60,882 nt of DNA from Candidatus Zhuqueibacterota bacterium (GTDB taxonomy: Bacteria; Zhuqueibacterota; Zhuqueibacteria; Oceanimicrobiales; Oceanimicrobiaceae). The notes beneath the pieces are model-generated. The model saw only the letters and a program-made list of their open reading frames with translations. It did no database searches and was not told where the DNA came from. The position numbers were made by a program, and so were the translations under genes. Location: NCBI GenBank assembly GCA_029262005.1, contig JAJDAG010000173.1, positions 1 to 60,882 of the forward strand. The letters run 5' to 3'. The stretch's first letter is position 1. Every line of letters begins with the position of its first letter. Below, one piece after another: positions 2,036-33,124 of the stretch.

Positions 2036-4471
2036 CTACTTGAGCAATTCATACATGCGCCGTCTGGTGCTCACTTCACGATCATCAAAAAAGTCGAGCA
2101 ATTCTGTTTGAAAATCCGTGATGGTCGCGAAACGTTGTTCCGGAATTTTGTCAAGCGCTCTGGTGAGAATTCGGTCTAACTCCAAAGGTAATCCCGGCTT
2201 GATGGTTGAGGCTGGTAGCGGTGTGTCGGCCAGAATATTCAAGCGTGTGTCGGGAGCAATTTCCGACTTGAATGGGTGTGTGCCGGTCAGGCTTTCATAA
2301 AGAAGGGTGCCTATTTGAAAAATGTCGCAGGTCTCCGTCAGTGTCTGACCCTGAATCTGTTCCGGTGCCAGGTAGGCCATGGTATCAGCGTCAAACTCTT
2401 CGGCTGATTCCGTGTAGCGGAGTTGCAGCAGACTACCGTCCACCACTTTGATTTCTTTGTGCGCACCCATGATGAAAATATTTTCCGGCTTTAGATTCTT
2501 GTGCCAGATTTGACTTTTGTGATATTGCGAAAGAACGCGACAGATACCAACAAATATTTCCAATATCTCCTGTGTTCCAGGTTTTTCATGCGTCATCAAA
2601 AAGCTTCGAAGATTCTTCCCTTCTATATGTTCGCGCACAAGATAGAGTGTATTCTCTTCTTCCCCCGCATCATAAATAACCCCGATGTTGGGATGGTTTA
2701 TGCGATTAAATCTGCGAACTTCGTCGTAAAACTGTTTTCTGAGCGTGGCCGTATCTTTGTGTGCCGCAAATGCATCTACCCGATGTGCTTTAATAATGAC
2801 CGGGCGTTCCAGTTGCGTATCATACCCTCGATAAGTTGAGGAAAAGGGCGCCTGCCGTAAAGTTTCCGTTACTTCATACTTGCCGAAATGGCGCTTTTCT
2901 TTGAAAGTAGGAACTTCAGTTTTGTTCTCAGTTCTATCCTCCGTAAAAGCAATTTTATAGAGGATGTGTTCTTGTGGAAAATAAGTCAGATTGAAGTTTC
3001 CTGTCTTATGACTGTTCAGGCCTGAGACTTGGCTGACCACTTGCTCACTGAGCATAACACAATCTGTTTCCAATTCAGAGGGGCTTATTGGTTTCTCTCC
3101 AAATTCGGGCTCTGCAATGCTGCGGTTGTGGATTTTTACAGTCTTGCGTAACTCACGAATACCATCATTTTCGAGTTCGCCAAAGGGAAGTGGCGTACAG
3201 TGCAGCGTGATGCGCATGTGAATAACTTCAGAATCATCGACGACCTGGTTGTAACGTTGCAGCTTTTCTATAATTTCCGTTGCTTCGGTCACCATCTTTC
3301 TTGGATTGGTTGCCAGCGCCACCATGCCGTCTGCGGTTTTTGCGCATTTGATTTCGCGTGATTGCAGCATATCTCCACAAATAAGCTTGAGAAATGTCTG
3401 AAAGGGGAGCTTTGACGTTTCTGCCTCATTCTCATAATTGGTGATTTCGAACAGTGCAAAAGTGTTTGTGGGGAAATCCGTAAGGTCAATTTCCGGTGTC
3501 TGCGAAGCGCCACCGTTGCCGTTTAAACTTAACACGCCTTTTGGGGCGGCGCTTTCCGAATCGTTGATTTTGCTCAATAAATCGTGGGCCAGGCGGAACG
3601 ATGGCTCGAAATCCGGTGGGATGCTTATGGACTGCGTAACTTCATCGATATTTTCGATTGCGTTATCCATGAGCATAATTTCATACTCGCCTTCAGCACC
3701 TTTGTCAGAAGGATTTTGTTTTTCTATCGCGAGCAGCAGGTTTCTGAAATCCAAATATGTTTCAAGCTCATGGATTCGAGTCAGTCGTTTTTCCGGGTTA
3801 AACTGCTTGAAACAGAAGTGTGCCTGGTGTGCTGACAGTGAAAAAGGATGATTTAGTTCTTCGGCGCTGGCCTTTTTTCTAAGCAGGGTGTCGCAAAAGG
3901 CTTGCGCGTAAAACGAGTCATCTTTTGACTGTGCGTGCAGGCTTTTCAATACTTCCAGTGCATCGTCAAATTTGTTGTCACGCAAAGCGGTGCGCAAAAA
4001 CAAATTCAGCAACTCAGGATTGTCACCCGATTCCAAAAGAGTCTTCTTGATTTCCGGAATGGCAATGTTTCCTGTGTTTTCGCTGAAAACGGCCTCAAGC
4101 GCAGCGCGGATTTCTGGTTCTTGCGGCGAGGAAAAACTCAGGCTTTTGTGCAATACCCGTAAAGCCGGATCTGCCACCACTTTTTGGTTAATAAAAAGCG
4201 TGGACAGGCTCAGGAACAAGTTCTCGTCATTGGGATGTCGGGTTGTGGCGCGCGCATAGGCATGCAAGGCCTCTTCTGAGGTGGCCTGCATTCCTGTCAA
4301 CGCCAATGCATGATTGAGAACAATCTCATCATCCTCAAAATTCTGACTGACCAGTTGTTTAAATTTGTCAGATGCCTTGGTATATTCACGATTTTCCAAA
4401 TAAGCAATGCCGAGCGCTTTGAGTAGCGCTACGACTTTGGGATCGGTGATTAGGTTTTCTCCTTGCATCAT
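2036..4471 (-). CDS. TPR / degenerate cyclase-like / pseudokinase protein (module A)
   Basis: This 811-residue cytoplasmic protein has three parts. TPR-like helical repeats cover about residues 1-220. A middle region of about 340-500 resembles a degenerate class III nucleotide cyclase domain; that assignment rests mainly on comparison with its paralogue at 23486-25975. A Hanks-type kinase fold runs from about 530 to 800. In the kinase part the VAIK lysine (VIIK) and the alpha-C Glu are kept. The catalytic loop, however, reads HKNLKPEN instead of HRDLKPEN, so the base Asp is Asn. DFG is replaced by DGS and the glycine loop is lost. It is therefore probably a pseudokinase, a scaffold or allosteric partner rather than an enzyme. 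It overlaps the preceding TPR gene by 4 bp (ATGA), implying translational coupling. It is the last gene of the minus-strand array. Confidence 0.8.
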   Translation of the reverse strand: MMQGENLITDPKVVALLKALGIAYLENREYTKASDKFKQLVSQNFEDDEIVLNHALALTGMQATSEEALHAYARATTRHPNDENLFLSLSTLFINQKVVADPALRVLHKSLSFSSPQEPEIRAALEAVFSENTGNIAIPEIKKTLLESGDNPELLNLFLRTALRDNKFDDALEVLKSLHAQSKDDSFYAQAFCDTLLRKKASAEELNHPFSLSAHQAHFCFKQFNPEKRLTRIHELETYLDFRNLLLAIEKQNPSDKGAEGEYEIMLMDNAIENIDEVTQSISIPPDFEPSFRLAHDLLSKINDSESAAPKGVLSLNGNGGASQTPEIDLTDFPTNTFALFEITNYENEAETSKLPFQTFLKLICGDMLQSREIKCAKTADGMVALATNPRKMVTEATEIIEKLQRYNQVVDDSEVIHMRITLHCTPLPFGELENDGIRELRKTVKIHNRSIAEPEFGEKPISPSELETDCVMLSEQVVSQVSGLNSHKTGNFNLTYFPQEHILYKIAFTEDRTENKTEVPTFKEKRHFGKYEVTETLRQAPFSSTYRGYDTQLERPVIIKAHRVDAFAAHKDTATLRKQFYDEVRRFNRINHPNIGVIYDAGEEENTLYLVREHIEGKNLRSFLMTHEKPGTQEILEIFVGICRVLSQYHKSQIWHKNLKPENIFIMGAHKEIKVVDGSLLQLRYTESAEEFDADTMAYLAPEQIQGQTLTETCDIFQIGTLLYESLTGTHPFKSEIAPDTRLNILADTPLPASTIKPGLPLELDRILTRALDKIPEQRFATITDFQTELLDFFDDREVSTRRRMYELLK

Positions 4472-6294
4472 ATTGTGCCGCTGCTCAGTTTCTTCAATTT
4501 TTTGTCGAGTTCACGTTCCATGATTGCGATGGCATTGCCATCGGTGCGACCTTGACTCAGGTAGTAGTCCGAAACAATTGAGTTGATTTCGGCTCTTCTC
4601 TGCGTAAGAACATTGAGTTTCAAAGTTGTCTCAAAAACCCGAATGGCGTTTTCATCCCGTTGGTCTTCCAGTAGGTAAATATTCGCCAGAATCGGATAAA
4701 GCGCTACGCGTTCAGGTTTTTTTTTCAGAAAATTTTCGTAGATCCTGGCCGCTTTTAAGTAATGTCCCTGAGATAGATACACGCGAGCACGGAGTGTTGG
4801 CGAAAAAGCAAAGGCACCAACCATAGGCAACAACAAAAGTGATACGCCTGAGCCTATCCACAGCAGCGCGCCGGTATTTTTTGCATCTGTTTTGGCGGCC
4901 ATATTGCCATTGCGCTTCAGGTTAAAACGGGCATCGGCCAGTTTGTTCTCCACATCTTTATAGGCAGGATTCAGCATCTTTACCTTTTCAAATGCCAGAA
5001 CAGCCTGCAACCAGTCACTCGTTTGCAATGCGGTAACGCCATGTTGGTAGAGTGTGTCGATGTTTGTTTTTATCTGTCGTTGCTTTACCAGTGCATCGCG
5101 GATTTTGAGGAGTTGCTCTTCCGTATCTTCGTAGCTAGGGTCGATTGCTTGCAAACTACTGAATACAGCGGCTGCCTGCCGCCACTCCTTGTTTTCCATC
5201 AAGGTTTTTCCTTGCTTGTAAAGCTGTGCCGTTTTAGCTTTCTTCTCTCGCGCAGCTCGAAGTTCCCGTTGGGCCTGTGCAAGCAGATTTGCAACATTGC
5301 CATATCCCGGTTCAAGCCGCTGCACCGCATCGAATTGTTCCAGCGCTTGTTGCCACTGCTTTTTTCTTAAGGCAGCCACACCGTTCTTGTAGTGTTGTTC
5401 GATAACCGGGGTCTCCGGCTCTGTTTGCACAACTGTTTTTTGACGCACGCGTTGTTTTGCCACCGGTTGGTTTTGTGCGCTGTCTATTTTCGGCGGGGAC
5501 ACTTTTCTTTCCGGTTTGCTTTGAGGTTGAACCTGGCTATCGATCTGCAGGGGTTGTACACGCTGGGCGGATTGCAATCGTGCTGTTTCCAGAAGCGTCA
5601 GGACATCTTTAAAGTTCGGGTCAGCTTTTGCAATTCTTTCGAGAAGCGTAATCGCTTCGGTGTGGCGCCCGGCTTGCAGCAGGGAATTGGCATTGGCGTA
5701 TTGACTGTTGAGTCCCTGTTTGCCGTTTGCTTTTGTAATGGCTTCGTTGAAGAGAACGCTATTTTGCGGCAGCAGCCGTTTGCCTCTTCGCAATATTTCC
5801 AGCGCTGTGGTGTATTCGCCCTGGGCAATATAGGCCTGGCCGAGTTCATAGGCAGTTCGGCCTCGCAGGGAATTGTTTCTGCCGGCGAGTTGTTCAACGC
5901 CCCGAAACGTTTCAATTCCTTTTTTCGTTTTCCCGGTGAGCATATACACAGTGCCCAGTTCAAACAGAATCTGTGCTTTGATCTTATCGTTCAAAGCGTA
6001 TGGATTGGTATAATAAGCTTTGTTCAGCGTGATTTCAGCTTGCTGGTATTGTTGATTGGACTTATATGCCAGGCCAAGATAAAAAAATGCTTCAACATAG
6101 TTAGGGTCCAGTTGCGTGGCTCTCTCAAATGCTTGAATTTTTTCATTAAGAGAAGCCGCATTCACACCTTTTTGGAAATACTCGGATGCAGTCTGACTGA
6201 TACCATTGGAAGCAAAAATCAGCAATAATAGCGTGATTATAAAATGAATGTTCGTGCTTTGTTGACAAGAATGCTGTCTTTTAAAGTGGTGCAT
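4468..6294 (-). CDS. TPR membrane protein with periplasmic and cytoplasmic repeat parts (module A)
   Basis: The open frame extends upstream to 6489, but that part lies inside the FHA gene. The ATG at 6294 gives a clean signal peptide (MHHFKRQ..., then a hydrophobic core FIITLLLLIFA), so I use it; the protein is then about 608 aa. Residues 35-470 are tetratricopeptide repeats, with a Lys/Pro/Gln-rich linker near 245-290. A transmembrane segment (ALLWIGSGVSLLLLPMV) lies near 477-498 and is followed by about 110 residues of further TPR-like helices. The predicted topology is periplasmic TPR, one membrane span and cytoplasmic TPR. The C-terminal part is clearly homologous to the short module-B gene at 25972-26382. 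It overlaps the FHA gene by 14 bp and the pseudokinase gene by 4 bp. TPRs are protein-binding, so it may link the envelope to the cytoplasmic pseudokinase. Confidence 0.8.
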   Translation of the reverse strand: MHHFKRQHSCQQSTNIHFIITLLLLIFASNGISQTASEYFQKGVNAASLNEKIQAFERATQLDPNYVEAFFYLGLAYKSNQQYQQAEITLNKAYYTNPYALNDKIKAQILFELGTVYMLTGKTKKGIETFRGVEQLAGRNNSLRGRTAYELGQAYIAQGEYTTALEILRRGKRLLPQNSVLFNEAITKANGKQGLNSQYANANSLLQAGRHTEAITLLERIAKADPNFKDVLTLLETARLQSAQRVQPLQIDSQVQPQSKPERKVSPPKIDSAQNQPVAKQRVRQKTVVQTEPETPVIEQHYKNGVAALRKKQWQQALEQFDAVQRLEPGYGNVANLLAQAQRELRAAREKKAKTAQLYKQGKTLMENKEWRQAAAVFSSLQAIDPSYEDTEEQLLKIRDALVKQRQIKTNIDTLYQHGVTALQTSDWLQAVLAFEKVKMLNPAYKDVENKLADARFNLKRNGNMAAKTDAKNTGALLWIGSGVSLLLLPMVGAFAFSPTLRARVYLSQGHYLKAARIYENFLKKKPERVALYPILANIYLLEDQRDENAIRVFETTLKLNVLTQRRAEINSIVSDYYLSQGRTDGNAIAIMERELDKKLKKLSSGTI

Positions 6295-8716
6295 GTTCTT
6301 TCGTTCCCCGGTTCTCTCGTATTTTATTTTGTCTGCTTTTTTTCTGGGTGAAAGTAAAACCTGCGGTGGCGGCAAACAACAAACCGAATGCAGCAAATGC
6401 GATATTGCCGGCCCTTGCCGCGGAATTGATTTGTTCGGCTGTGCAGTGGTGGGTCGCGCTGCTAAACGCCTGCCCCCAAATAACGGCATTGCTTTTTATT
6501 GGCGAGTTTGTTTGAATTCGATAAATGTTGCCATCCTGGCGCGTGAATAAAAGGTCGGTGAGTTCATCATCATCAATGTCTGCTGCAAGAATTGACGAGG
6601 CCACCGGATTCGATTCGTTGTGAATCTGAGAAATGATCTTTCCATTTATGCCATTAAATAAGAATATGGAGCCGCTTAAACCGGCTACAATAACTTCGTT
6701 TGCGCCGTCCTTGTTCAGATCAACGAGCGTGACCGGCGAAATAAAATAATCATCCGACTCCGCATAGTACTCCCAGAGCACTTTTGCAGTGCCAGTGGGC
6801 TGTGCGCCGCCTTGAATGATTTTTAGTGACTGATTCGAAGTAAGCACCGCATCTAATTGCTCATCGCCATCTATTTTGCCAATGGCTGGTGCGAGGTTTG
6901 TCTTGTTGAAATGTAAGTCACTATGCAGTTTCTCTTGCCAAATTGATTTAAAATTCTCGCCATCAACAGCAAGGTATTGACCGCTGGTCGAAGACATTAG
7001 CAAGTCCGCAACGGTATCATCGTTGAGATCGAAAATGGCAATTGGCGCCTGTATTTGTTGCGGCACGTTTGTCTCAGTGCCGGCCTTTTCCGCAAAGTTG
7101 AGCACCCTGGATAATTTCCCGGTCAAGCCGTCAACGATAATGACTTTTCCATCTTCAGTGCCAATGAAAATAGTACATTGCCCGTCGCCCTGAATGTCCG
7201 CCGAAGAGGGGGTGCCTTTTATGGATAGACGTGTGTTTACTTTTTTCCAGTTCAGTTGAAAAACGTCACCGTAACCAATGTGGAGTTGACCATCTTTGGC
7301 TGCCACCAGTACATCTTGAAGGCCGTCACCATCAAAATCGTTGACGACAGGTGCACTTGTGAGCTCTCCGCCAAGCAACGGACTTAGCCACATTTCCGCA
7401 CCATTTTTACCATCAAAGGCATGTAATCGGGCATCCTGGCCAACGACCAGCACATCTTCGAGATCATTTTGATTCATATCCGCGAGAACAATAGGCAGGT
7501 CACTTCGCACACGCAGATGGTCATTTTCCCAGAGGCGGTTTTTTGTCAAGCTGTCCAGCACTTTAAGGCGGCCTTCAGCATCAACGAAAACCACATTGGC
7601 CATATCATCTCCGTTCAAATCAGCGATGGCGATGTTTGTTTCGCGAGTTGCGGAAACGGTGTTTGCTGTGGCGGTTGTTGGTTCCGGTCCCTGGTACCAG
7701 GTTTCTTCAAAAAATTTCAGTTGTTCCGGTGCTGCATTCAGCAACCAGCTATTGGTGCAGGAAATACCAACTACGGCAACTGTAATGACCGCAAAGACAG
7801 CAGATAAAATCGGCATCATCCTCGGGGCATTGCGTATCCACCAAATGCCTGCATGTTTGGGTGGACTATAGTCAGGCAGTTCATTTGTAACAAACCTGAA
7901 AATGGTACTTTTCTGGTCGCTGACTATTTCAATTTCATCGCCTTCATGCACGCTGCATTCGTCGCTTGAGCTCAGTTTTTTTTGATTGACATAGGTTCTG
8001 GTTTTACTGCGTTTGTCACTTACCACAAATCGACCATTGTCGTTGCTGATGGTTGCGTGTCGCCTTGAGATACTTGGGTCGAGGTCGCCATGCTCATTGT
8101 TGCGGATAACGATGTCATTGAGCGTGTTGTCGCGCCCAATTCGAGTGTCGCCAATTTTGAGAGGATATTTTTTGCCAAGATACGGGCCGTAAATAACAGC
8201 GAGACTGTAAGCCGAATTTTCAGCCGCATCCTGTGTCTGCGTTTGCGTTGAGTGATTTTCGGCAACATCGCCAATTTCAAAGAACTCATCAGTCTCCTCT
8301 AAGCCGGGTGTGTCCTGCGTAGATTTGAAGTGAAAGACATTGCCCAATTCATCTTCACCAATAACTTCCAGCGTATCATTTACGCTTTGTTTCTGCGGAG
8401 ATGATGCCTGCACAATGTCTGCGAACAGGATTGAGTAGGGGCCGAATGTCAGTTCATCGCTGTCGGTAATTTGTTTACGAACTGTTAGAGGTTCGCCGTT
8501 CAGCTTTAATCTTGACCGGCTGTTTTGTTTGTCAATAAATAAACCATCATCCGGGTGCTCGATTTTCACTTGAACCGAGGCCACGCTGTCATCCGGAATA
8601 ACGAAATCACATTTTGCACCTGAGCCAACCAGATAGACTTTTTTGTTAGACTCGAGGGCAAACTTCTCGACGAATTCCTGGTTTTTTTTTAGAATAAGTT
8701 TCGGTGTTTCCGGCAT
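6281..8716 (-). CDS. Membrane protein with two FHA domains and an FG-GAP propeller (module A)
   Basis: The N-terminal 95 residues form a degenerate FHA domain. A second FHA domain at about 170-265 has the canonical binding residues (IGRD, SRRH and a VN before the last strand) for a phosphothreonine peptide. A membrane span (LSAVFAVITVAVVGISC) lies near 300-320. Residues about 360-745 form eight FG-GAP/VCBS-type repeats with Asp-rich calcium loops such as ADLNGDDMAN, NDFDGDGLQD and VDLNKDGANE. A second span near 770-790 is followed by a basic tail. The predicted arrangement is cytoplasmic FHA domains and a periplasmic propeller tethered at both ends. It starts 2 bp after the PEGA kinase stops and overlaps the TPR gene. 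I infer that the FHA reads phosphorylation by the neighbouring kinase. The paralogue is at 27729-30449. Confidence 0.88.
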   Translation of the reverse strand: MPETPKLILKKNQEFVEKFALESNKKVYLVGSGAKCDFVIPDDSVASVQVKIEHPDDGLFIDKQNSRSRLKLNGEPLTVRKQITDSDELTFGPYSILFADIVQASSPQKQSVNDTLEVIGEDELGNVFHFKSTQDTPGLEETDEFFEIGDVAENHSTQTQTQDAAENSAYSLAVIYGPYLGKKYPLKIGDTRIGRDNTLNDIVIRNNEHGDLDPSISRRHATISNDNGRFVVSDKRSKTRTYVNQKKLSSSDECSVHEGDEIEIVSDQKSTIFRFVTNELPDYSPPKHAGIWWIRNAPRMMPILSAVFAVITVAVVGISCTNSWLLNAAPEQLKFFEETWYQGPEPTTATANTVSATRETNIAIADLNGDDMANVVFVDAEGRLKVLDSLTKNRLWENDHLRVRSDLPIVLADMNQNDLEDVLVVGQDARLHAFDGKNGAEMWLSPLLGGELTSAPVVNDFDGDGLQDVLVAAKDGQLHIGYGDVFQLNWKKVNTRLSIKGTPSSADIQGDGQCTIFIGTEDGKVIIVDGLTGKLSRVLNFAEKAGTETNVPQQIQAPIAIFDLNDDTVADLLMSSTSGQYLAVDGENFKSIWQEKLHSDLHFNKTNLAPAIGKIDGDEQLDAVLTSNQSLKIIQGGAQPTGTAKVLWEYYAESDDYFISPVTLVDLNKDGANEVIVAGLSGSIFLFNGINGKIISQIHNESNPVASSILAADIDDDELTDLLFTRQDGNIYRIQTNSPIKSNAVIWGQAFSSATHHCTAEQINSAARAGNIAFAAFGLLFAATAGFTFTQKKSRQNKIRENRGTKEHAPL

Positions 8717-8718
8717 CG

Positions 8719-11268
8719 CTATTCGTTGACCTCCTTTGCGAGATTGAACTCCAGCAAGCTCATACCTGCCGACTCAATAACAACCGACTGCTCTTGATAT
8801 GCATAGCCGTTTTTGCTTGTTCTGAACAAGTAGAGCCCGGCTTTAAGAATACCATTGACCGTTCCATCAAGATCGGTTACATCGAGAGATTCCCGCGCTC
8901 TGTTGCGTTTGTCCATTGCCTTGTAGCGTACTTCAACGTTGCTAAGTGGCCGCCGGGTTGAGTTGTCTAAAACCACGACTGAGAACTGGCCGGAGGATGG
9001 TTGCATGCGCGCAGTCACCAAATTGGTTGACGGCGTCACTTTGACTCTGAGATCTTCGTAGCCGGGTTTGGAAAAAGTAGCGTAGTAAGTTTGCGGTTGC
9101 AGATTGACCGTGAGCGGCGTTATGCGTCCGGATGAAACTGTTTTTTTGCCTCTGGTCAACTTTGTAAGGGTGGTACGCAACTCTTTTTTATTCTTGTCAG
9201 CCACACTATATGCGACAAACTTGACGGGCCGCGCCAGAACTTCGAAAATTTTAGTCGGTGTGTTTGCACTGACTTTTATGTTTAGTTTTTTGGTATTGTA
9301 GCCTTTCTTTTTTAGAACAATACTGTGGCTCGCAGCGGTGAGGAAATAGCCTTTTTCTGCACTTGTATATCCAATGGGATTGGCGTTATTGTCCAGATAA
9401 ATGGCAGCCTTAGGCGGACTTGAATTGATGCTGACCAGTTTGCCAAACAGACCACGAATGCGATGATTTATAGTCGGTTCTACTTGAACGTCATAGTTCC
9501 ACAGCCGTCGATCTTCAATTTCTTCAATCATTTGTTCATCAAGGGCAAAACCAATTAAGTCGGCAAACCCGGCCTTTTTAAGCTGAATATCGCAGCGCTC
9601 GCCAATTTCCCAGGTTACGGAGCACGGTGTGTTTTGTCCGAACTTTATGCCATTAATAAAGACTTCCGCATTTTCCGGAGTTGATTCTATTTTCAGGGTT
9701 GTTTTGAATTTGAATGTATACGGTTTATTGCCCCGGCGCATTTCTTCACCCTTGACAGTGATTTGGCCTTTACTGGGAATATGCAGTGATTTCACAATGA
9801 ATTCGTAAGGCTTTAACACCAATTTCAGTTCATAGATGCCGGGACCAATTTTATCAATTGCAAGGGGGGTTTTACCCGGCAGGGCTTCATTGTTTAGAAA
9901 CACCTGTGCGCCCGCCGGCATCGATGCAATCCTGATTGCAGGCGGAAACAGGAAATCGTAGATACCAGTGCCGAAGTCTGTCCATTGCATCGAAATGTCC
10001 AGCAGCAAAAATGAAAACAGCATGGCTGCAACTGAAATCAAACTTTTGACCACCAGTTTTTTGTGGCCGCGTGCCGACAGCCGAATTACGTCAATGACTG
10101 TTTTTATCTCATCGTCGTCATCGAACGATGCCTCTGGAATTGGACCAACCGGTGCCGGCGGCAGATTCAGCGCTTGCCCGAACGGTTCATTCGTAACGAT
10201 TCCACCATTTGGCATGGGAGCGCCTTGGTCCAAATGGTTTGATTTCAGACCATCCTCTGTTCCCAGATCAATTTTATGATTGTTTTCAATAGCAGGACTT
10301 GGGCTGGTGACTCCCAGAGTGTCGGTTGATTGTGATGACGCTTCCGCAATTGTAGATTCCTGCACAAACTCAACCAACTCTGCATCAATTGCCGTGGGCG
10401 CACCGTTCATGACCAGGTAAGTGACCAAATCAATATAAAACTGGTTGGCATTTTGAAAACGCTTTTCAGGCGTTTTTTCAAGCGCTTTCTTAATTATTTT
10501 TTGTAACGGTTTAGGCGATCGTGAAAACCCTTTTAGTTTTATCTTGCCGTCGCGCAGTGTCTCAACAATTCCTTGTGTGTCATCCCCTTGAAAGAAACGC
10601 TTTCTTTCCACTAACTCATACAAAACCAGCCCTAGAGAAAAAATGTCAGAGCGCTTGTCGAGTGTATGTTCCGTGGACACATGCTCGGGTGACATATACT
10701 GCACCTTTCCCTGCAATGTGATGGTGGAAGCATCACTGACAGCTTCTTTCTGAACACCGGCAATACCAAAATCGATAAGCTTAACGATGCCGGTGCCGGA
10801 GATCATAATGTTGCCTGGTGAGATGTCCTGATGTACCAGGTTAAGTGGTTCATTGCTCTCTGTATTACGGCAATTGTGGGCATAATCGAGGGCTTTACAA
10901 ATCTCTGCCACAATGTGGACTGCAATGTGGACCGGCACAGCCTTGTCAGTTAATTTGCTTCTTTTGAGAAAGTGGATCAGATCAAAGCCATCAATAAATT
11001 CCATAACGATGTAGAACTGACCTTCCTTTGTCTGCACCAAATCGAAAATGTGGACGATGTTCTGGTGGTGCATTTGGGCAACGTGCCGTGCTTCATTCTG
11101 GAACTGATCGATGTACCATTTGTCCTCTACCAGATCCTGATTGATTTCTTTGACGGCAATGTCTTTTCCCAAAACATTGTCGTAGCCTTTGTAAATCGTG
11201 CCGAAACCGCCGCGTTTGATGACACTGAGCAGTTGGTAACGATTGTTTAGTAATTTCAGTGATTCCAT
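8719..11268 (-). CDS. Hanks-type Ser/Thr kinase with periplasmic PEGA repeats (module A)
   Basis: The kinase domain covers about residues 8-275, with the glycine loop GGFGTIYKG, the VAIK lysine (AVKEI), the catalytic loop HQDISPGN and an intact DFG (LIDFGIAG). Because the Arg of HRD is Gln, this is a non-RD kinase, although the catalytic Asp is present. A flexible Pro/Ser/Asp linker (300-395) precedes a membrane span near 408-428. The periplasmic part has at least three PEGA-type repeats (for example IASMPAGAQVFLNNE and IESTPENAEVFINGI) and ends in a carboxypeptidase-regulatory-like beta domain. PEGA domains generally bind cell-envelope surfaces or proteins. It begins module A and directly follows the pilus genes (24-bp gap to the PilX-like gene). 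The paralogue is at 30464-33124. Confidence 0.9.
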   Translation of the reverse strand: MESLKLLNNRYQLLSVIKRGGFGTIYKGYDNVLGKDIAVKEINQDLVEDKWYIDQFQNEARHVAQMHHQNIVHIFDLVQTKEGQFYIVMEFIDGFDLIHFLKRSKLTDKAVPVHIAVHIVAEICKALDYAHNCRNTESNEPLNLVHQDISPGNIMISGTGIVKLIDFGIAGVQKEAVSDASTITLQGKVQYMSPEHVSTEHTLDKRSDIFSLGLVLYELVERKRFFQGDDTQGIVETLRDGKIKLKGFSRSPKPLQKIIKKALEKTPEKRFQNANQFYIDLVTYLVMNGAPTAIDAELVEFVQESTIAEASSQSTDTLGVTSPSPAIENNHKIDLGTEDGLKSNHLDQGAPMPNGGIVTNEPFGQALNLPPAPVGPIPEASFDDDDEIKTVIDVIRLSARGHKKLVVKSLISVAAMLFSFLLLDISMQWTDFGTGIYDFLFPPAIRIASMPAGAQVFLNNEALPGKTPLAIDKIGPGIYELKLVLKPYEFIVKSLHIPSKGQITVKGEEMRRGNKPYTFKFKTTLKIESTPENAEVFINGIKFGQNTPCSVTWEIGERCDIQLKKAGFADLIGFALDEQMIEEIEDRRLWNYDVQVEPTINHRIRGLFGKLVSINSSPPKAAIYLDNNANPIGYTSAEKGYFLTAASHSIVLKKKGYNTKKLNIKVSANTPTKIFEVLARPVKFVAYSVADKNKKELRTTLTKLTRGKKTVSSGRITPLTVNLQPQTYYATFSKPGYEDLRVKVTPSTNLVTARMQPSSGQFSVVVLDNSTRRPLSNVEVRYKAMDKRNRARESLDVTDLDGTVNGILKAGLYLFRTSKNGYAYQEQSVVIESAGMSLLEFNLAKEVNE

Positions 11269-11292
11269 GATTGCATTGATTGCAGCCTCCTG

Positions 11293-12513
11293 CTAGTCCA
11301 TTGCCGTAATAAAGCCGCGCATGAACGGTTCGACCCGGTTTGTCCTGGGATAATATGGCGGTGTATTTAATCTGAGCCGCGTATCATACAAATGCGTGAA
11401 ATTGAAATTGTTGACCGGCAGTGAAGTGGCCGGTATTCGGGATGTTGCCAGGCTGTCCTCTACTGCAACAATTGAACCGAGCAATGTTAACGCCAGGTCT
11501 GCATTGGCCGCTACTTTGTTCTCGATAAGCACGGAACCGATGCCACTGCTGGCGGCCATCACAGCGGCCTGAACCACCATCCCGGTATTGGTTGTATATT
11601 GAAAGATGACTCTATTTCTTGCAATGATACCAAGATAGTCTTGAGATGTGCCGTTTATGCTTGGATTGGTTTTATAGCGTAATGTATCTTGAATGATGAT
11701 GTCTCTGCCTGAAGTAACCGTCATTCTCCCGGCAACAATTCCGCGTACTTTGATGTCGTTTCCGTCGGTTGTTCCGATGGTGCCATTGTTAGCATTTAAT
11801 TTCGTGGCAATGGCCCATGTAAGGCTGTCTGCAGACCAGGTATAAGTACTGTCATCATTAAAAACCAGCCAGATGGATTGATTAAACCAATCGCCGGATG
11901 CGGCTGTTACAGTACGCAGAGGATTTAACATTGCGTCATTCGGGACTTGAATGGTCTGGGTATCTAATTCTGCACCGCCGTAAAGTTTGGGGTTACCATC
12001 ACCGTTAAAGCCAATGTTATCATCGGATGAAACCCGGCCCATAAAAATCGGTGTGCCGGTTACTTTGATTTTCGAATTGGCATGAACCGGACCCCACAAA
12101 GTGTCTCCGCTTGCATACGTGCGGTGCGATGGCCAGTCGTGCATGAAAAAGTAGTAAAATGAATAAGCCGGCCACATGACAGCAGCGTAGGTGCTGTCCG
12201 CACCACCGGCATAACTCGTTGCCACTTCAATACCGAGGCTAACCACCTGATTTACCGAGTCAGCGGTGGCATCAAAAGTGCGGATGATACCTTGTACACC
12301 GTTTAATTCGAGTGTGTCGTCCGGCACGCTGTCTCGATAGACCTTGGATAGCGCAACGTTGGTAATGCTTTCGATGGCATTGTTTCGCAGCCAGCGATCG
12401 TACTGCCGGACTATTTCCTTTGACGAACTTTGCTGACTCGATGTCAGGTTAAACATGACGCCTGTAAAAATGGTTGTAAAACCAACCACGATAATCATCA
12501 AACTTCTACCCAT
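11293..12513 (-). CDS. PilX-like pilus-associated protein with leaderless N-terminal membrane helix
   Basis: The 406-residue protein starts with a hydrophobic helix right after Met-Gly (MGRSLMIIVVGFTTIFTGV). A long beta-rich exported part follows, with GPVHAN and repeated Gly/Asn-rich turns. This layout is like PilX or DUF4900-type proteins in pilus loci of related bacteria; the family name is recalled, not verified. There is no classical prepilin leader and no Glu5. It is the last pilus gene before signalling module A and is separated from the previous pilin-like gene by 186 bp that hold no gene. A small palindrome (CGGCATGCCG near 12621-12630) lies in that gap. Its role may be pilus priming or tip structure. 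It could alternatively be a surface adhesin. Confidence 0.62.
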   Translation of the reverse strand: MGRSLMIIVVGFTTIFTGVMFNLTSSQQSSSKEIVRQYDRWLRNNAIESITNVALSKVYRDSVPDDTLELNGVQGIIRTFDATADSVNQVVSLGIEVATSYAGGADSTYAAVMWPAYSFYYFFMHDWPSHRTYASGDTLWGPVHANSKIKVTGTPIFMGRVSSDDNIGFNGDGNPKLYGGAELDTQTIQVPNDAMLNPLRTVTAASGDWFNQSIWLVFNDDSTYTWSADSLTWAIATKLNANNGTIGTTDGNDIKVRGIVAGRMTVTSGRDIIIQDTLRYKTNPSINGTSQDYLGIIARNRVIFQYTTNTGMVVQAAVMAASSGIGSVLIENKVAANADLALTLLGSIVAVEDSLATSRIPATSLPVNNFNFTHLYDTRLRLNTPPYYPRTNRVEPFMRGFITAMD

Positions 12514-19425: not shown

Positions 19426-19548
19426 GCACAAATTTGCCACCCCTGTTTTGCCCAAGCCGGGGGTATTGGCAGCCCTTTCGTTGCTTTAAATTAGCTCTTG
19501 GTTATTACTTTCACTTATTTGTTTTCAAGTTTCAACCGTCGGTACGGC

Positions 19549-22866: not shown

Positions 22867-22908
22867 AATTCACAGAAAAGTGAATTATTTCACCTCGCTG
22901 GTTTGACT

Positions 22909-23383: not shown

Positions 23384-23485
23384 GGACCCCGCGGCGGCCA
23401 CAACTGCTTGTTTCAGGACCATAACCTGTGTAGAGCAGGATGTCCATTTATTTATCTGCGTCTTCCTTTATTAATCTTAATCATC

Positions 23486-25975: not shown

Positions 25976-26382
25976 ACTCCATTAGGTGCGTATTGCTTTA
26001 AGCGTTTTAATTCTTTGTTTACTGCTTTCTCTATAAGTCGTATTGCTTCTGTGTCTTTTCTGCCTTCAACGATGTAATGTTTCGCAATCACGGTGTACAA
26101 TTCATCTCGCCATTCAAACGGAATTTTGAATTTTACAATAAATTCGAATATCTTGACAGCTTTTCTGTCTCGCCGGTTTTCGAGATAGTAAATACGTGCA
26201 AGCTTCCGGTAGAGCTGCATTTTTTCAGGATTCTGTTGCAGCAGCGATTCCAATAAATTGCGGGCCCGTGCTGATTTACCACGCCAGATTAAAAGGTTGG
26301 CCCGTTGCTCCGGCGTGAACAATACAATACCAAAAATAGCGACAATACTAATCAACCCTAATGGCAACCATATAAATGTCAC
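25972..26382 (-). CDS. Short TPR membrane protein (module B)
   Basis: This 136-residue protein starts with an N-terminal membrane span (LPLGLISIVAIFGIVLF, about residues 6-22). It continues with helical TPR-like repeats (ANLLIWRGKSARARNLLE, KLARIYYLENRRDRKAVKIF, HYIVEGRKDTEAIRL). It aligns along its full length with the last ~135 residues of the module-A protein at 4468-6294, span included. The large periplasmic TPR part of that protein is absent here. The gene may be a truncated or slimmed version. It follows the PP2C gene by 6 bp and overlaps the pseudokinase gene by 4 bp. The helices probably face the cytoplasm and could dock the pseudokinase. Confidence 0.75.
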   Translation of the reverse strand: MTFIWLPLGLISIVAIFGIVLFTPEQRANLLIWRGKSARARNLLESLLQQNPEKMQLYRKLARIYYLENRRDRKAVKIFEFIVKFKIPFEWRDELYTVIAKHYIVEGRKDTEAIRLIEKAVNKELKRLKQYAPNGV

Positions 26383-26388
26383 AACAGC

Positions 26389-27729
26389 TTACCTCTCCGG
26401 ATTCGGGATTTGAATGCCGGATGTCTTGTTGATTACATTGTTGGCGGCGTCTATCAGGAAAATTGAAAAATCACCGGTTATTGCCAGTTGTTCATTTTCC
26501 GCATAAGGATGAATTTTGTCAATGAGCAAGCCTCGTTGCTCGAGTTTTGCTTTGTTAAAGTCTGACTCGCTGTTAAAAAAAACAAAAGCTAAAACAGCGT
26601 CTTCTTGCACGTCGGAGCGTTGTATTAATTCGCTTTGCCCCCCCTGAATGCCTGTGCGTTGAATTCCAGCGGCTGATGCCATTTGTTGTGCCTGGATATT
26701 TGTGCGGGCACTGGAACGTCCGCCTTTAATAAGCATGCCCAGCATAAAGCAAATCAGTCCTGTTGCCAGGACTAATATGGGCAGCATAAAAGGTCTTGTG
26801 CTGAAAGCGTTTGTCATCGGTATCCTGCTGTTTTGTAAATTGGGTTCCGTATAATGTTCCTGTATAAATTTGTCTGCCTTCGCGAGCAGGCGGTCGCCTT
26901 CTTCCGGTATAACAGTAGAAAGAGCAGGCCGTTTTGTCTCGCGACTGTCCTGATCGACACGGGCAACAGCCACGGTTATGTTATCAGAGCCGTCTCTGTG
27001 CAGCGCTTTGGTCAGCAGCCCGCGTGTTGCTGTATCAATTGAACCGTTACTTCGCGCGACGGTCTTTTTAATATCCTTTGCGCCGACAGAGGTGTGTAAG
27101 CCGTCGGTGCAAAGGACGTAGATGTCATTCTTTTTGTATTTCTCACAATGAATATCGATCTTAATTGCCGGGCCGGTGCCAAGAGCTCGGGTTATAACAT
27201 TTTTTTGTGCGAATGTTTCAATCTGCTCTGCGTTGATCTCATTGTCTTCAATCAGCTCGTTTAGCCAGGAATGATCCTGGGTTAATTGTAATACCTTATT
27301 ATCGCTGTGCCGAAAAATTCGACTGTCACCAACGTGCACCATGGTTGCGAATGACTTATCCAGTGTTAATGCGACGACTGTTGTGCCCATGCCTCTTAGC
27401 TTTGGAAATCGTTTTGAGACATTGTAAATACGTCTGTTCGCTAACCTGACGGCAACAATCAGGCGTCTCGATGACGATGCCAGTTGCTTTTCGCTTTCGT
27501 AAAGAAATTCCTGAATGCCCTCTTCACTCAGTTCCTGATAGATATCCTTTATGGTTTCAACAGCTATTTTGCTCGCCAGCCCACCGGCCACCTGACCACC
27601 CATGCCATCACAAACGATGATGAGATTTTCGTTCTTGGATATATAATAGCTATCTTCGTTCGCTTTGCGGACTTTGCCAACGTCGCTGTGAACCGCAGTG
27701 GAGGTTTTTATTCGTTTTTGTTTCAACAT
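26389..27729 (-). CDS. PP2C-family Ser/Thr phosphatase with C-terminal membrane span
   Basis: The protein probably removes phosphates put on by the two Hanks-type kinases in the array. The N-terminal 250 residues show PP2C metal motifs: SDVGKVRKANEDSYY, VCDGMGGQVAGG, GDSRIFRHSDN, TDGLHTSV and DGSDNITVAV. A linker and one membrane span (LPILVLATGLICFMLGMLI) near 312-330 follow, with about 110 further residues on the far side that have no known motif. It starts with a one-base overlap (TAATG) with the FHA gene and is followed by the short TPR gene. No paralogue exists in module A, so one phosphatase may serve both modules. Confidence 0.92.
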   Translation of the reverse strand: MLKQKRIKTSTAVHSDVGKVRKANEDSYYISKNENLIIVCDGMGGQVAGGLASKIAVETIKDIYQELSEEGIQEFLYESEKQLASSSRRLIVAVRLANRRIYNVSKRFPKLRGMGTTVVALTLDKSFATMVHVGDSRIFRHSDNKVLQLTQDHSWLNELIEDNEINAEQIETFAQKNVITRALGTGPAIKIDIHCEKYKKNDIYVLCTDGLHTSVGAKDIKKTVARSNGSIDTATRGLLTKALHRDGSDNITVAVARVDQDSRETKRPALSTVIPEEGDRLLAKADKFIQEHYTEPNLQNSRIPMTNAFSTRPFMLPILVLATGLICFMLGMLIKGGRSSARTNIQAQQMASAAGIQRTGIQGGQSELIQRSDVQEDAVLAFVFFNSESDFNKAKLEQRGLLIDKIHPYAENEQLAITGDFSIFLIDAANNVINKTSGIQIPNPER

Positions 27730-30449
27730 TAGTAATAGCTGAGTTTGCTTCGGCTTCTTCTCAGCATGATCTGAATGCCGGCGATGCAGGCAATCGAAAG
27801 AAGAGAAAGAAGCATGGCGATTGTATAAGTTTTTGTGTTCGATTGTTCAGAATTCATGAAACTCGTGTGCCGGCTGTCCGCGAAGGCCTGCCCCCAAAGC
27901 ACGACACTGCTTAAGCTTGTTCTATTTGTGCTCAGTTTGTGAAACCTTCCGTTGTTTTTCAGGAGCAAGATGTCAACAGTGTTGTCACTGTCAAAATCTG
28001 CTACCACCGGTTGGCTTAGAACAAGCTCACCGCGGAGATCTTGTTTGAAAAGCGTTTTTCCAGTTGCTCCCTCGAGAATACGAATGCCACTTTGTTTGCC
28101 TATCGCAAAGACATCCATCGTTCCATTTTTATTGAAATCCGCAAGAATCGGGCTTACTGTGAATTCATCTCTGCTCTTTTCTGGAAACTCCCAGAGAATC
28201 ATTTTTCGATCTTTACCTTGCCCCATGCCTTTCATTGCGCGAAGTTTGCCGTCATGGCCCTGAACGATGATGTCTGGAAGATCGTCACCATCAAGATCGC
28301 CGAGCGTTGTGCCGGGCATTTGTATCTGCTTACTTTGGCTGATGTTGTACCAAAGTCGGTTCAAATTTCCCCCGGCCAGCACAAGCAGATTTCCTTGTGT
28401 CGTGGTCACAACCATGTCGTCAATGCCATCAGAATTCAGATCTGCAATGGCAACAGGGGATCTGATGCGGTTCTTCTGGTTGAAACTGCCGGTGGCTTTG
28501 TTGAGTTCTTCATCAACGTTTATGTAGCCAACCACTCTTTGATCGCGGCCATCGGCGATGACAACCCTGCCGTCTTCGGTGCCGGCGAGAATGTTGGCAA
28601 TCCCATCGCCTGTAACATCGCCGGCACTCAGGCCGGAGCGTAGTTCAGCGTTAGTACTAAGCTTGCTCCAGCGAAAGTCGCGAGCAGTGCCAAAACCAAT
28701 ATAAATGGCATTGTCAGCCCCGGCAACAGCCACGTCTTTTAAACCGTCACCATTCACATCCGCGACGATAGGATGACTTGTGAGTGGGCCGGGTAGAATA
28801 GGACTTTTCCATATTTCCAGACCTGAACTGCCGTCTATGGTTCGTATTCGAGAATCGTCGGAGACAACGACGATGTCATCAGTACCTTTGTTAAACAAAT
28901 CTGCCAACATTACCGGCATTCCGGCAAGGAATCTGGTGTCGGTTTTTGTCCACAGAGGTACCTTTGTTTTTCCATCCGTACAAGTCAGTTGCCCACGATT
29001 ATTGATATAAATAAGGTCGATATGGTCATCTCTGTTAACATCAGTTGCTGCCGGAAAAATAGTGGTCAGGTTGTTGCCTTCAACAGCAAATTGCGAGTCG
29101 ACATCGCTTGAGCCCCAAACTGTACTGTCGATTGCTAATGTATCGGGCTGACCTGCAATTCTGTGTCTGGTTATAAACGAATTTATAAAAACGGATACAG
29201 CCAGCACGACAATAATGGCCGCACCTGCATTAAGCAGCCTCATGATATTCCTGACATGCCAGGGCCCGGCTTTTCTGGGAAATGAGTAATCCCAGTCACC
29301 ATCTTCCACCATTCTGAAAATGTGACTTTTCTTATCGCTGATTATCTCTAATTCGTTATCGGGACTGATAGATACTTGATCATGTACTTCGAGTTTACGC
29401 TTGTTAATCCGAGTACGAGTCTTGCTCCTTTTATCTGAAACCAACCATTTCCCGTTTTTAAATTTCAACGTGGCGTGGCGTCTCGACACGCTTTGATCCA
29501 GTTGCCCTTTGGAATTTTTTCTGATAACGATATCGTTGAATTTTCCGTCACGGCCAATTCTCGTTTCTGGTGCTTTAATTTTGAACTTACGTCCGAGATA
29601 ATAACCATAAATCCCCAGCAAGTAGTATGAAGATACTGGCTTCTGCTGTACCTGAGCAGCCTGAAAAGAACTGGAGGCATTTTTTTTCTCAGCAAAAGCA
29701 CTTGGCGGACTTGACGCTGGTATCGGCGTTTTGGGTTGAGATTCCGGATAAATGTTCTCAATTGCCTCTGTTTCACCACTAGTCTGCATGTTAGCGTCGT
29801 CAGGTGAAGGCGGTTTACTGAGATTTATCAGAGTCTCGGGGTTATGACCATTGAATTTGGCTTTTTCGCTCTTGTTGAAAAACAACTCAGGCTCAGGCTC
29901 GGAGTTTTTGCTATGGAGCGGGTCAGCGATTCTTGTTGATGAGAACCCGTTTGCTGCTGTACTGGCTGTGTCAATGTTCCGGGCTGGTCGTACATCGATA
30001 TCCTCTTCGGTGTTCACCCAATGGTTAAGTTGTCGAAGTGCCGGAACCCCCAATATTTGTTCTTCAAGTTTAGGCGCCATTGGGCCTGCCGGAACAGGTC
30101 TGGGCGCTGGCTCGTGCGTGAGTACGTGATCTTTCGCTTCCTGCGGTTGTGCGTCTGGATCTATGAAGATAATCGAATGTCGCCCTAACCGAACTTCGTC
30201 AAGATTTTGAACCGGTGTGCGGGTTGATATTTTTTCGTTGTTGACAAATGTTCCCCATTGGCTCTGCAAATCACGGACATAATAGTCACCGTTTTGCTTT
30301 TCAAATTGGAGATGAAAAAACGAAATATCATCATCTTTGATAATGATATCGTTTCCATGTTCGCAGCCAACCGTAAATGCTTCAACTGCTTGAGGCACAG
30401 ACAGTTTTTTGACGACAATTTCCCCCCTTTTTACAATCAACTTAGGCAT
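27729..30449 (-). CDS. Membrane protein with two FHA domains and an FG-GAP propeller (module B)
   Basis: This is the paralogue of 6281-8716, 906 aa. FHA domain 1 (about 5-95) has VGCEHGNDIIIKDDDISFFHL and a VNNEKI turn. Acidic and Pro-rich linkers follow (110-270). FHA domain 2 (about 275-370) has the canonical GRDGKFND, SRRHATL and N/K turn. A membrane span (LLNAGAAIIVVLAVSVFINSF) lies near 405-425. An FG-GAP propeller (about 465-845) has eight Asp-rich repeats, for example ADVNGDGLKD, ADLNSDGIDD and GDLDGDDLPD. A second span near 880-898 (IAMLLSLLSIACIAGIQIML) ends in a basic tail. The WGQAF motif after the propeller is shared with the paralogue. It is 14 bp after the PEGA kinase gene. The inferred function is a phosphothreonine-reading transmembrane sensor. 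Confidence 0.88.
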   Translation of the reverse strand: MPKLIVKRGEIVVKKLSVPQAVEAFTVGCEHGNDIIIKDDDISFFHLQFEKQNGDYYVRDLQSQWGTFVNNEKISTRTPVQNLDEVRLGRHSIIFIDPDAQPQEAKDHVLTHEPAPRPVPAGPMAPKLEEQILGVPALRQLNHWVNTEEDIDVRPARNIDTASTAANGFSSTRIADPLHSKNSEPEPELFFNKSEKAKFNGHNPETLINLSKPPSPDDANMQTSGETEAIENIYPESQPKTPIPASSPPSAFAEKKNASSSFQAAQVQQKPVSSYYLLGIYGYYLGRKFKIKAPETRIGRDGKFNDIVIRKNSKGQLDQSVSRRHATLKFKNGKWLVSDKRSKTRTRINKRKLEVHDQVSISPDNELEIISDKKSHIFRMVEDGDWDYSFPRKAGPWHVRNIMRLLNAGAAIIVVLAVSVFINSFITRHRIAGQPDTLAIDSTVWGSSDVDSQFAVEGNNLTTIFPAATDVNRDDHIDLIYINNRGQLTCTDGKTKVPLWTKTDTRFLAGMPVMLADLFNKGTDDIVVVSDDSRIRTIDGSSGLEIWKSPILPGPLTSHPIVADVNGDGLKDVAVAGADNAIYIGFGTARDFRWSKLSTNAELRSGLSAGDVTGDGIANILAGTEDGRVVIADGRDQRVVGYINVDEELNKATGSFNQKNRIRSPVAIADLNSDGIDDMVVTTTQGNLLVLAGGNLNRLWYNISQSKQIQMPGTTLGDLDGDDLPDIIVQGHDGKLRAMKGMGQGKDRKMILWEFPEKSRDEFTVSPILADFNKNGTMDVFAIGKQSGIRILEGATGKTLFKQDLRGELVLSQPVVADFDSDNTVDILLLKNNGRFHKLSTNRTSLSSVVLWGQAFADSRHTSFMNSEQSNTKTYTIAMLLSLLSIACIAGIQIMLRRSRSKLSYY

Positions 30450-30463
30450 CTGAGCAAAAAGGA

Positions 30464-33124
30464 TTAGTTCGATGGATAAATTTCTATGACCAGGTCGAGC
30501 GTCTCTCCGGCTCGAGCTGTGACCAACTTACTTTGGGCTTTGTATCCTTCTTTCTTGACAATAATAATATAGTTTCCGCCGGCAATTTGGCCGTATGCAG
30601 ATCCGGCAAAGTCCGTTCTGGCAAGCAGAGCATCTTCTGTTTCTGAACCGCCCTCGAAATTATAAAAAATTTCGGCGCCGGTTACAGCTTTCTCAGACAG
30701 TGCGTCGATAACTTTTATCTCATAGGCCGGCTGCAGCGGTTCCATTTCGACTTGAATGGAGCGGGTTTCCGATTCGATACGCATCTGAGCGCGTTGGTAA
30801 CCCGGTTTTGAAAAGACCGCCGTGTATGTGAGTGCTGGAATTGTCAGCTCCACAGGTGTTCTCCTGCCGGCGCGCAGCGCATCTCTGCCGTTTCTTTTTA
30901 GACTAATCAGTTTCGCACCAATGTCTCGACGTTCTGAGTCATGGGCATCGACAACGGTAAATCTGATTTTGCGAGATAATACAGCCCTAAGCTTATCTGA
31001 ATAGGATTCATCGATATTCACGCTGAGCCTGGTTGAAACAAAGTTGCTTTTTCTAAACAATAACTCATGCTTGCCGGCTGGTAGTGAGATCCCTCTGCTA
31101 TTACCAGTCACACCGATGATCTGATTTGTTCGAACATCAACTATTTCCGCACCCGACGGAATGCTCTCTACTTTGATGTCCTTTAAAAAGACGCCTGTGA
31201 CGGCGTACCGGGTGTTGTCATCGTTATATACTTCCAATTTCCATAATCTGCGGTCTTCTACTTCATCGAAATGCTCGACTGTGTTCAGAGAATAGCCGGA
31301 AAGTGTTTCAAAACCGTTTTTTCGCATTTCAAGAGACAGTGGGGCGCCAACGTCCCATGAGATCATGCACGGCGTTCGCTGGTTAAACCTTACGCCGTTG
31401 ATGTAAATGTCTGCTCCTTGTGGAGTTGAATTGAGCATGATTTCCGTGCTGAATCGAAAAAGATAGGATTGGCTGTTGCCTTCGGTCTCATTTCCCTGCA
31501 CCTTGATGCTGCCCTCCCTTGGCACAAACAGTGATTTGACAATAGGTTTATAGCCCGGCAATGAAATCTCCAACTTATGGACACCCGGGTTTATTTTATT
31601 TATGGGAAGCGGCGTCAAGCCCGCCAGTTGCTGGTTGTCAAGTGAAATGCTCGCCCCTGGGGGAACCGTTACCAGCTCGATCGCGGGCGGGAAAAGGTGG
31701 TCATACACCCAGACGCCTGCTTTTGTCCAACCGTTGATGGTATCAAACACGGCGAGTGTCAGCAGTGCCAACAGCAAACCGGTGGTGATTTGCAAGACTC
31801 GCTTTTTGTAATTTCTTGCGGAGACGCGAATAATATCTATCACCGTTTTCAGGTCTTCGCTGCTACCGAGTTCAAATTCCATGGTGCCAATGCCTGGTGA
31901 CCCTTGGAGGCCCGGCAAAGGCTGATCGAAATCCGCTAGCCTGCTGTCAGGTTTCTGGAAATTGGAAACGTGGTTTACCCCGGAATGTGGAGATGGGTTT
32001 ATGTAAGATTGAGGACGCTCTGGAGTTATTTGTTTCGGCGCCGTGCCGGCAGAAACCTCCGGTGTTGTTACGTCGCTTTGGTAATAGTTTGCAGCGCTTC
32101 CCGGGTTGCCGGATTCATTTAGTGCATCCGGGGTACTCTTGCCGGGAAAGACACTACTGCCGTACTGGTAGTTTGGCGGTGTTATTGGCGGGTTCGTTTG
32201 GCCGAAGTGGTTTGTCAGGTAAACGGCCAGGTCGTCCATCAATTCACCTGTTTCATTGCAGGCGATGAGATATTGCAGCAAATCAATATACATGTGGTTT
32301 GCTGTTTGGTAGCGTTTGGAAATATCTATTTCCAGAGCCCTGAGCAATATTTTAACCAGAGCTGCGGGTATCTTCTTGCCTTTAAGCGCTTTGCGGAACC
32401 ATTTCGGATTTTTACCAGCGGTCAGAACCTCGTCTTGAGAACTGAATAGCCGCTCACCGGTTATTGCCTCATATAATACCAGGCCTAGCGAAAACAAGTC
32501 TGACCGGTGGTCTGGGTGGTTGCCCATAATAAGTTGTTCCGGCGCCATGTAAGGAATTTTTCCACGCAGTTTGGTGTCTTTTCTTTTCTTCTGATGGCGT
32601 TTGACGGATGCAATACCAAAATCGATTAGCTTGACCGCACCTTCACGAGAGATCATTATATTGGAAGGCGAGATGTCTTGATGCACCAAATTCAGTGGCT
32701 TGTTTGTGAAAGCGTCGCGACGTTGGTGTGCGTATTCGAGCGCCATGCATATTTCGGCAATGACGTAAACCGCGAGGTGAGGTGGGATGCTCTTCCCTGA
32801 CTTTTTCGACGAACGAATGATCTTTTCAAGATCAATGCCATCGATATATTCCATGATTATGAAGACATGGCGGTCTGAAGCCTTCTTCAACTCATATATA
32901 TGCACAATGTTGTTGTGGCTAAGCTTGGCAATGTTGAGCGCTTCTTCCTGAAACATGTCCAGATATTTGGGATCTGCCACCAGGTTGGGAGCGATTTCTT
33001 TGATGGCAACCGGTTTGTTTAGCTTTTTGTCCAGTCCGTAGTAGACAATCCCGAACCCGCCTTGCTTGATTTGCCGAATAATTTCATACTTGTCGCCAAG
33101 CTCTCTATTGTAATTGGTCGTCAT
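30464..33124 (-). CDS. Hanks-type Ser/Thr kinase with periplasmic PEGA repeats (module B)
   Basis: This is the first gene of the long minus-strand array, 886 aa. The kinase domain (about 8-275) has GGFGIVYYG, AIKEI, HQDISPSN and LIDFGIAS with a YMAPEQL activation segment, so it is probably active. HRD reads HQD, as in its paralogue. Residues 280-430 form a Pro/Ser/Asn-rich linker. A membrane span (VLQITTGLLLALLTLAVFD) lies near 440-458. The periplasmic part has PEGA-like repeats (IELVTVPPGASISLDNQ, IMLNSTPQGADIYINGV, VESIPSGAEIVDV) and a final carboxypeptidase-regulatory-like domain. The start at 33124 is the first ATG. It is divergent from the phosphatase gene at 33463. Confidence 0.9.
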   Translation of the reverse strand: MTTNYNRELGDKYEIIRQIKQGGFGIVYYGLDKKLNKPVAIKEIAPNLVADPKYLDMFQEEALNIAKLSHNNIVHIYELKKASDRHVFIIMEYIDGIDLEKIIRSSKKSGKSIPPHLAVYVIAEICMALEYAHQRRDAFTNKPLNLVHQDISPSNIMISREGAVKLIDFGIASVKRHQKKRKDTKLRGKIPYMAPEQLIMGNHPDHRSDLFSLGLVLYEAITGERLFSSQDEVLTAGKNPKWFRKALKGKKIPAALVKILLRALEIDISKRYQTANHMYIDLLQYLIACNETGELMDDLAVYLTNHFGQTNPPITPPNYQYGSSVFPGKSTPDALNESGNPGSAANYYQSDVTTPEVSAGTAPKQITPERPQSYINPSPHSGVNHVSNFQKPDSRLADFDQPLPGLQGSPGIGTMEFELGSSEDLKTVIDIIRVSARNYKKRVLQITTGLLLALLTLAVFDTINGWTKAGVWVYDHLFPPAIELVTVPPGASISLDNQQLAGLTPLPINKINPGVHKLEISLPGYKPIVKSLFVPREGSIKVQGNETEGNSQSYLFRFSTEIMLNSTPQGADIYINGVRFNQRTPCMISWDVGAPLSLEMRKNGFETLSGYSLNTVEHFDEVEDRRLWKLEVYNDDNTRYAVTGVFLKDIKVESIPSGAEIVDVRTNQIIGVTGNSRGISLPAGKHELLFRKSNFVSTRLSVNIDESYSDKLRAVLSRKIRFTVVDAHDSERRDIGAKLISLKRNGRDALRAGRRTPVELTIPALTYTAVFSKPGYQRAQMRIESETRSIQVEMEPLQPAYEIKVIDALSEKAVTGAEIFYNFEGGSETEDALLARTDFAGSAYGQIAGGNYIIIVKKEGYKAQSKLVTARAGETLDLVIEIYPSN

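Follow-up and report, generated by a model that had tools for sequence, protein, structure and literature searches.

The window analysed here (the whole DNA stretch of 60,882 nucleotides), part of a candidate division KSB1 genome, exhibits on its minus strand, from position 33124 to 2036, a signalling module (module A), then ten pilus genes, then a second module (module B). We see an about even chance that this is a type IV pilus locus with a KSB1-specific Ser/Thr-phosphorylation cassette built in twice, a T6SS-like pathway having been recruited in one family. Module A consists, in this order, of a PEGA kinase, a double-FHA/FG-GAP protein, a PP2C phosphatase, a short TPR membrane protein and a TPR-pseudokinase; module B is the same set without the PP2C. 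A previous sequence-only reading had placed kinase-FHA-pseudokinase modules on both sides of the type IV pilus genes, and all these genes were recovered on the minus strand at the coordinates given there. Its description of one gene set in one order holds for the paralogues, which do follow a matching order, but the PP2C is confined to module A. The TPR member is likewise homologous between the modules, but TPR_A (136 aa) covers only the C-terminal membrane and TPR part of TPR_B.

The first gene of module A encodes PEGAk_A (30464..33124), with a Ser/Thr kinase domain, a juxtamembrane KTVID motif, one predicted transmembrane segment (TM) and periplasmic PEGA domains. FHA_A (27729..30449), defined by Pfam, residue conservation and TM prediction, contains two FHA domains, a TM, an FG-GAP beta-propeller and a C-terminal TM. 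It is followed by the phosphatase PP2C_A (26389..27729; Pfam, NCBIfam Stp1), which has a TM, by TPR_A (25972..26382; Pfam, comparison with TPR_B, TM), and by psK_A (23486..25975), which combines TPRs, a cyclase-like fold (topology only) and a pseudokinase exhibiting HLN for HRD. In module B, the PEGA kinase PEGAk_B (8719..11268) again carries the KTVID motif, while FHA_B (6281..8716) has a degenerate FHA1, a canonical FHA2 and an FG-GAP propeller. The membrane protein TPR_B (Pfam, TM) is called at 4468..6489, its true start being probably near 6294 and not 6489, and psK_B (2036..4471) comprises TPRs, the middle domain and a pseudokinase with HKN for HRD. Pfam assigns Pkinase and PEGA to the kinases (P0019 and P0004), two FHA domains plus FG-GAP to P0018 and P0003, PP2C to P0017, TPR to P0002 and P0016, and TPR plus Pkinase to P0015 and P0001. 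FHA_A and FHA_B are 35% identical over 650 aa, and the kinase domains of PEGAk_A and PEGAk_B 47% identical; judged by their sequences, the two modules are true paralogues. The arrangement of module A, pilus and module B is intact in genome G003 and spread across contigs in G005.

The ten genes between the modules comprise a PilA-like major pilin (22909..23289), the platform protein PilC/GspF (21427..22770; Pfam T2SSF), the assembly ATPase PilB (19579..21414; Pfam T2SSE) and a PilT-like retraction ATPase (18190..19455), whose closest solved structure is PilT 2ewv (E = 3e-69). PilB, PilC and PilT are recognised by NCBIfam models, all at scores under the cut-offs (for PilT, TIGR01420 at 315 bits against a cut-off of 319). 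The next gene (16111..18123) encodes a 670-aa protein with Pfam SPOR and weak PilN matches. Its predicted structure best matches PilM in Foldseek (5eou, E = 2.8e-13), and we therefore regard it as a fusion of PilM and PilN that also carries a SPOR domain. The PilO-like protein (15063..15971), placed by position and topology only, has no family match in Pfam or NCBIfam; the PilM/PilN/PilO alignment complex is present in this sense. The C-terminal ~65 aa of the PilO-like protein resemble a PilP/GspC-type domain and may be PilP-like; no separate PilP gene was seen. A short PilQ/GspD-type secretin (415 aa, 13797..15044; Pfam Secretin, NCBIfam) is followed by two minor pilin-like proteins with an N-terminal TM (13297..13794 and 12700..13284) and by a large minor pilin-like protein (11293..12513; TM) with a weak Pfam DUF4900 match. 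The locus thus holds the assembly ATPase, platform, retraction ATPase and secretin of a type IV pilus, and a prepilin peptidase (Peptidase_A24) is encoded elsewhere in the genome. The canonical prepilin N-terminus with Glu5 is absent: the PilA-like proteins of the window and of families f4, f5, f7, f8, f9 and f10 mostly begin with MGQQQLLL, with a leader of at most two residues and no Glu5. It is the pilins that deviate in this respect; the genes of the machine are typical. A single prepilin peptidase was found in the genome (G000:C80, L055); it adjoins a second T2SSE ATPase and may be shared by another pilus or T2SS-like cluster.

A sigma-54-type -24/-12 promoter, TGGCACACTAATTGCT (33210..33225, minus strand), lies 86-101 nt upstream of PEGAk_A. 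The pattern TGGCA-N6-TTGC is found before PEGAk_A in all six family genomes holding the region, at 84-104 nt from the start codon in five of them and, in G004, 233 nt ahead of the called start; its background is 6 of 635 other ORFs (0.9%). RpoN is encoded elsewhere in the genome. Sites of this type also precede the modules of G031a and G020 and two of the four copies of a third module, C (see below), whereas in the family neither pilA nor PEGAk_B has a convincing one. An inverted repeat TGTCCG-N5-CGGACA (approximately 33337..33353, minus strand), some 110 nt further upstream than the promoter, is a candidate enhancer. In an alignment of five genomes it is complete in the window and G003, half-conserved in G005, and absent in G002 and G007; it lies in the interval that separates PEGAk_A from the divergently oriented RsbU-like gene. 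Histidine kinases and an activator of the NtrC type are encoded near the locus. A sigma-54 response regulator of the NtrC/PilR type (38850..40199, plus strand; Pfam) is a possible activator, and its homologues (42-49%) adjoin pilus genes in other families.

At the other end of the pilus cluster, the distance between the last pilus gene and the start of PEGAk_B ranges from -1 to 24 bp (24 bp in the window) in all six genomes with this junction (the window, G003, G005, G007, G001 and G006). In G007, G001 and G006 the junction is with the secretin, not with a minor pilin; in G007 the minor pilins stand beside pilB instead, yet the PEGAk_B junction is kept. The gap between psK_A and pilA is 196 bp in the window and 163-409 bp across the family genomes, and this interval may contain a separate promoter. 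The earlier suggestion of one regulated unit is consistent with the sigma-54 site before module A and with module B following closely on the last pilus gene, but fits less well with the 196-bp gap and with genome G002, which has no module B.

The residues required for phosphorylation and for its recognition are conserved across the homologues. The VAIK lysine, HxD aspartate and DFG aspartate are intact in 28 of 28 PEGA kinases, and the five phosphothreonine-contact residues of FHA2 (Arg, Ser, Arg, His, Asn) are invariant in 29 of 29 proteins; FHA1 lacks its Arg in 28 of the 29. The HxD aspartate of the pseudokinase is replaced in all 23 homologues (by N in 20, R in two and S in one), confirming its status as a pseudokinase, with the VAIK lysine (Arg in two) and the aspartate at the DFG position being retained. 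Among the Foldseek matches listed for psK, all are to the kinase domain. The middle domain, previously called cyclase-like, has a predicted topology compatible with a class III nucleotide cyclase, but the name finds no sequence family in its support, there being no PDB sequence match and no Pfam cyclase among the families listed for 21 members.

The linker between kinase domain and TM is variable (1.51 bits per column), and ends beside the membrane in a conserved motif, K/R-T-[VI]-I-D-[VI]-x-R-[LVI]-S (3.57 bits). Its Thr is present in 27 of 28 kinases and the Asp at +3 in all 28; Asp at +3 of a phosphothreonine is a known FHA preference. Among ORFs over 130 aa in the regions collected, the pattern is limited to these kinases, and neither a KTxID motif nor another phospho-target was found on the pilus proteins of those regions. 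Genus g2 alone has lost the Thr, and there only in module A, which has Ala in G007 and Pro in the partial kinase of G001. In the same two loci the FHA2 sequence KRSKTRT is replaced by KSKSGLR/KSTWGLR; module B of g2 keeps the Thr and a near-canonical FHA2 loop. The joint loss therefore points to docking within the module, and counts as one event because it belongs to one lineage. Alternatively, the KTxID motif could be a membrane-proximal helix.

We propose the following mechanism. Transcription would start at module A from the sigma-54 promoter, as its sequence suggests. Each PEGA receptor kinase would sense a periplasmic signal and autophosphorylate the juxtamembrane Thr in K/R-T-[VI]-I-D, and the intact FHA2 of the partner propeller protein, by the evidence of conservation and joint loss, would dock on the phosphothreonine. 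Going by the functions of their families, the pseudokinase and TPR proteins would provide a scaffold in the cytoplasm, and PP2C_A would reverse the mark. The docked complex may then gate pilus assembly or retraction, as PpkA/PppA/Fha gate T6SS; this last step is suggested by linkage, with the conserved surrounding gene order as the main caveat. More tentatively, at somewhat below even chances, the pilus would be run by two dedicated kinase-FHA switches that differ in function, only one of them having a phosphatase. They would derive from a stand-alone KSB1 receptor module, duplicated and re-tasked, in which the kinase offers a juxtamembrane phosphothreonine of its own to the membrane propeller protein.

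Of 63 genomes in the class, 33 have the module's FHA protein, 27 a close PilB and 14 both (odds ratio 0.96, p = 1). There being no co-occurrence, a class-wide functional coupling of module and PilB was rejected. Among the named relatives with this module, most are metagenome-assembled genomes of candidate division KSB1 or Calditrichota. At least one module is present in all eight genomes of the window's family (f1). In seven of the eight, one or other of the copies shares a contig with pilus genes; of G004, just the conserved flank of module A is visible. The module is not, however, a general pilus component, and in part this is the outcome that the sequence-only reading had named as refuting it. 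Modules stand alone in f4, f6, f8, f9 and f11, with no pilus genes in the stretches read, and homologous pilus clusters without a module occur in f4, f5, f7, f8, f9 and f10; among the genomes compared, module and pilus are linked in f1 and unlinked elsewhere. The window's own genome has a third full copy, C, including the PP2C (L007 10330-19026 = G000:C190:46329-55025), whose kinase has a sigma-54-type site 146 nt upstream; no pilus genes are among the ORFs labelled on C190. In origin, the cassette belongs to KSB1 signalling as a free-standing module and is not a pilus part. Genome G002 (C68, L061-L062) has the pilus and module A, no module B and no third copy, and a second DUF4900-pilin gene instead. 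Phylogenetic trees resolve A, B and C as three fully supported family clades; C groups with the stand-alone copies, and A and B, each on a long stem, are specific to the family and separate from the stand-alone type. A tandem sister pair A+B is neither shown nor rejected (p-AU 0.08).

These data bear on a reading that we consider rather unlikely, in which A and B are an autonomous envelope-sensing cassette and share with the stand-alone copies a function unrelated to the pilus (sensing of the cell envelope, for example), with an adjacency to the pilus that is historical and kept by gene order. The stand-alone modules, the copy on C190 and the missing co-occurrence outside the family all favor it, as do the modules of G031, G025, G020 and L146, which have no pilus next to them but have as neighbours the RsbU/RsbW/Mla genes also found around module A in the window. 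Gene order around the locus is moreover conserved family-wide, including the Mla, NtrC and histidine kinase genes, so that linkage alone is weak proof of function. Two observations stand against an accidental adjacency: module B is spaced from the pilus genes as within an operon in all six genomes with the junction, the rearranged G007 included, and the long-stem clades of A and B differ from the stand-alone type as expected from a change of role.

The FHA-TM-periplasmic architecture, the TM topology and Yop-YscD_cpl matches in both FHA proteins would also suit a structural role, in which the FHA-TM-propeller and TPR proteins are parts of a pilus inner-membrane platform (a YscD/CdsD-like ring) and phosphorylation is secondary. 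CdsD carries FHA domains. We consider this role improbable, as the YscD-type match may stem from the FHA fold itself, the pilus loci read in other families lack the FHA protein, genomes without this pilus possess it, and the invariant phosphothreonine-contact residues favor phospho-reading. There is likewise a slim chance for the scheme of the sequence-only reading, in which the kinases mark pilus proteins, the FHA protein reads the mark, the PP2C erases it and the pseudokinases are adaptors at the pilus motors. It agrees with the gene content and linkage, with the intact catalytic residues of the kinases and with pseudokinases inactive by sequence. The clearest candidate FHA ligand, however, a motif that matches the conservation of the FHA2 site, is carried by the kinases, and none of the pilus proteins in the collected regions has it; no result puts the pseudokinases at the motors.

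The preferred reading, a KSB1 cassette recruited to the pilus, has its nearest parallel in the PpkA-PppA-Fha pathway of T6SS, where a periplasmic input reaches the kinase and FHA reads phosphothreonine (PMC3953482, PMC6082577). As there, a membrane Ser/Thr kinase, a PP2C and an FHA protein with phosphothreonine-contact residues are encoded (in module A, within one locus) with an envelope machine. Here, however, the machine is a type IV pilus, the FHA protein is a membrane propeller protein, and there are an extra TPR protein and pseudokinase, two specialised copies and a sigma-54 site. T6SS as a hidden partner was rejected, the VipB/TssC sheath family being absent from the genome; because no T6SS was found, the locus is not a member of the T6SS threonine pathway, though alike in its proposed working. 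In Chlamydia, a kinase is similarly paired with a secretion-type machine, PknD phosphorylating the structural component CdsD (PMC2765968), but this machine is a T3SS, without FG-GAP propeller or PEGA kinase cassette. The FHA protein of ArnA/ArnB and the Ser/Thr kinases ArnC/ArnD influence the archaellum, a type IV pilus-like machine (PMC6509490, PMC5300886); that network is archaeal, acts on archaellum gene expression and has another domain set. PilS/PilR-sigma54 control of type IV pili (for Myxococcus, PMC6211767) shares the NtrC-type activator and the sigma-54 site near a pilus cluster, but here the site precedes the kinase gene, not pilA, and the link to the activator is a putative one.

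In agreement with the earlier claim that no described pilus system has this architecture, no counterpart was found for a conserved, co-oriented kinase/FHA/phosphatase/pseudokinase locus around a pilus, and the open-licence literature yielded no paper combining FHA domain, type IV pili and PEGA, or FHA, FG-GAP and kinase. FHA-read threonine phosphorylation gates T6SS and touches T3SS and archaella; if the proposed mechanism is true, such control would also reach the type IV pilus of a bacterium, and one from a phylum little studied by experiment. The five-gene KSB1 signalling module described here has a specific, testable docking motif, and lineages naturally vary in having no, one or two pilus-linked copies.

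Other kinase associations were seen in these genomes. In f8, the pilus cluster (L121 of G017, L122 of G027, L123 of G030) contains a different, single-PEGA kinase of ~450 aa with an intact HRD, adjoining pilA and a gene of the NtrC type; this appears to be a separate instance of a kinase associated with a pilus. On G000:C19 (L008 8145-12355), a gene for a TPR-TM-active kinase overlaps that of an FHA-GAF-SpoIIE-like phosphatase, near a patatin-like protein.
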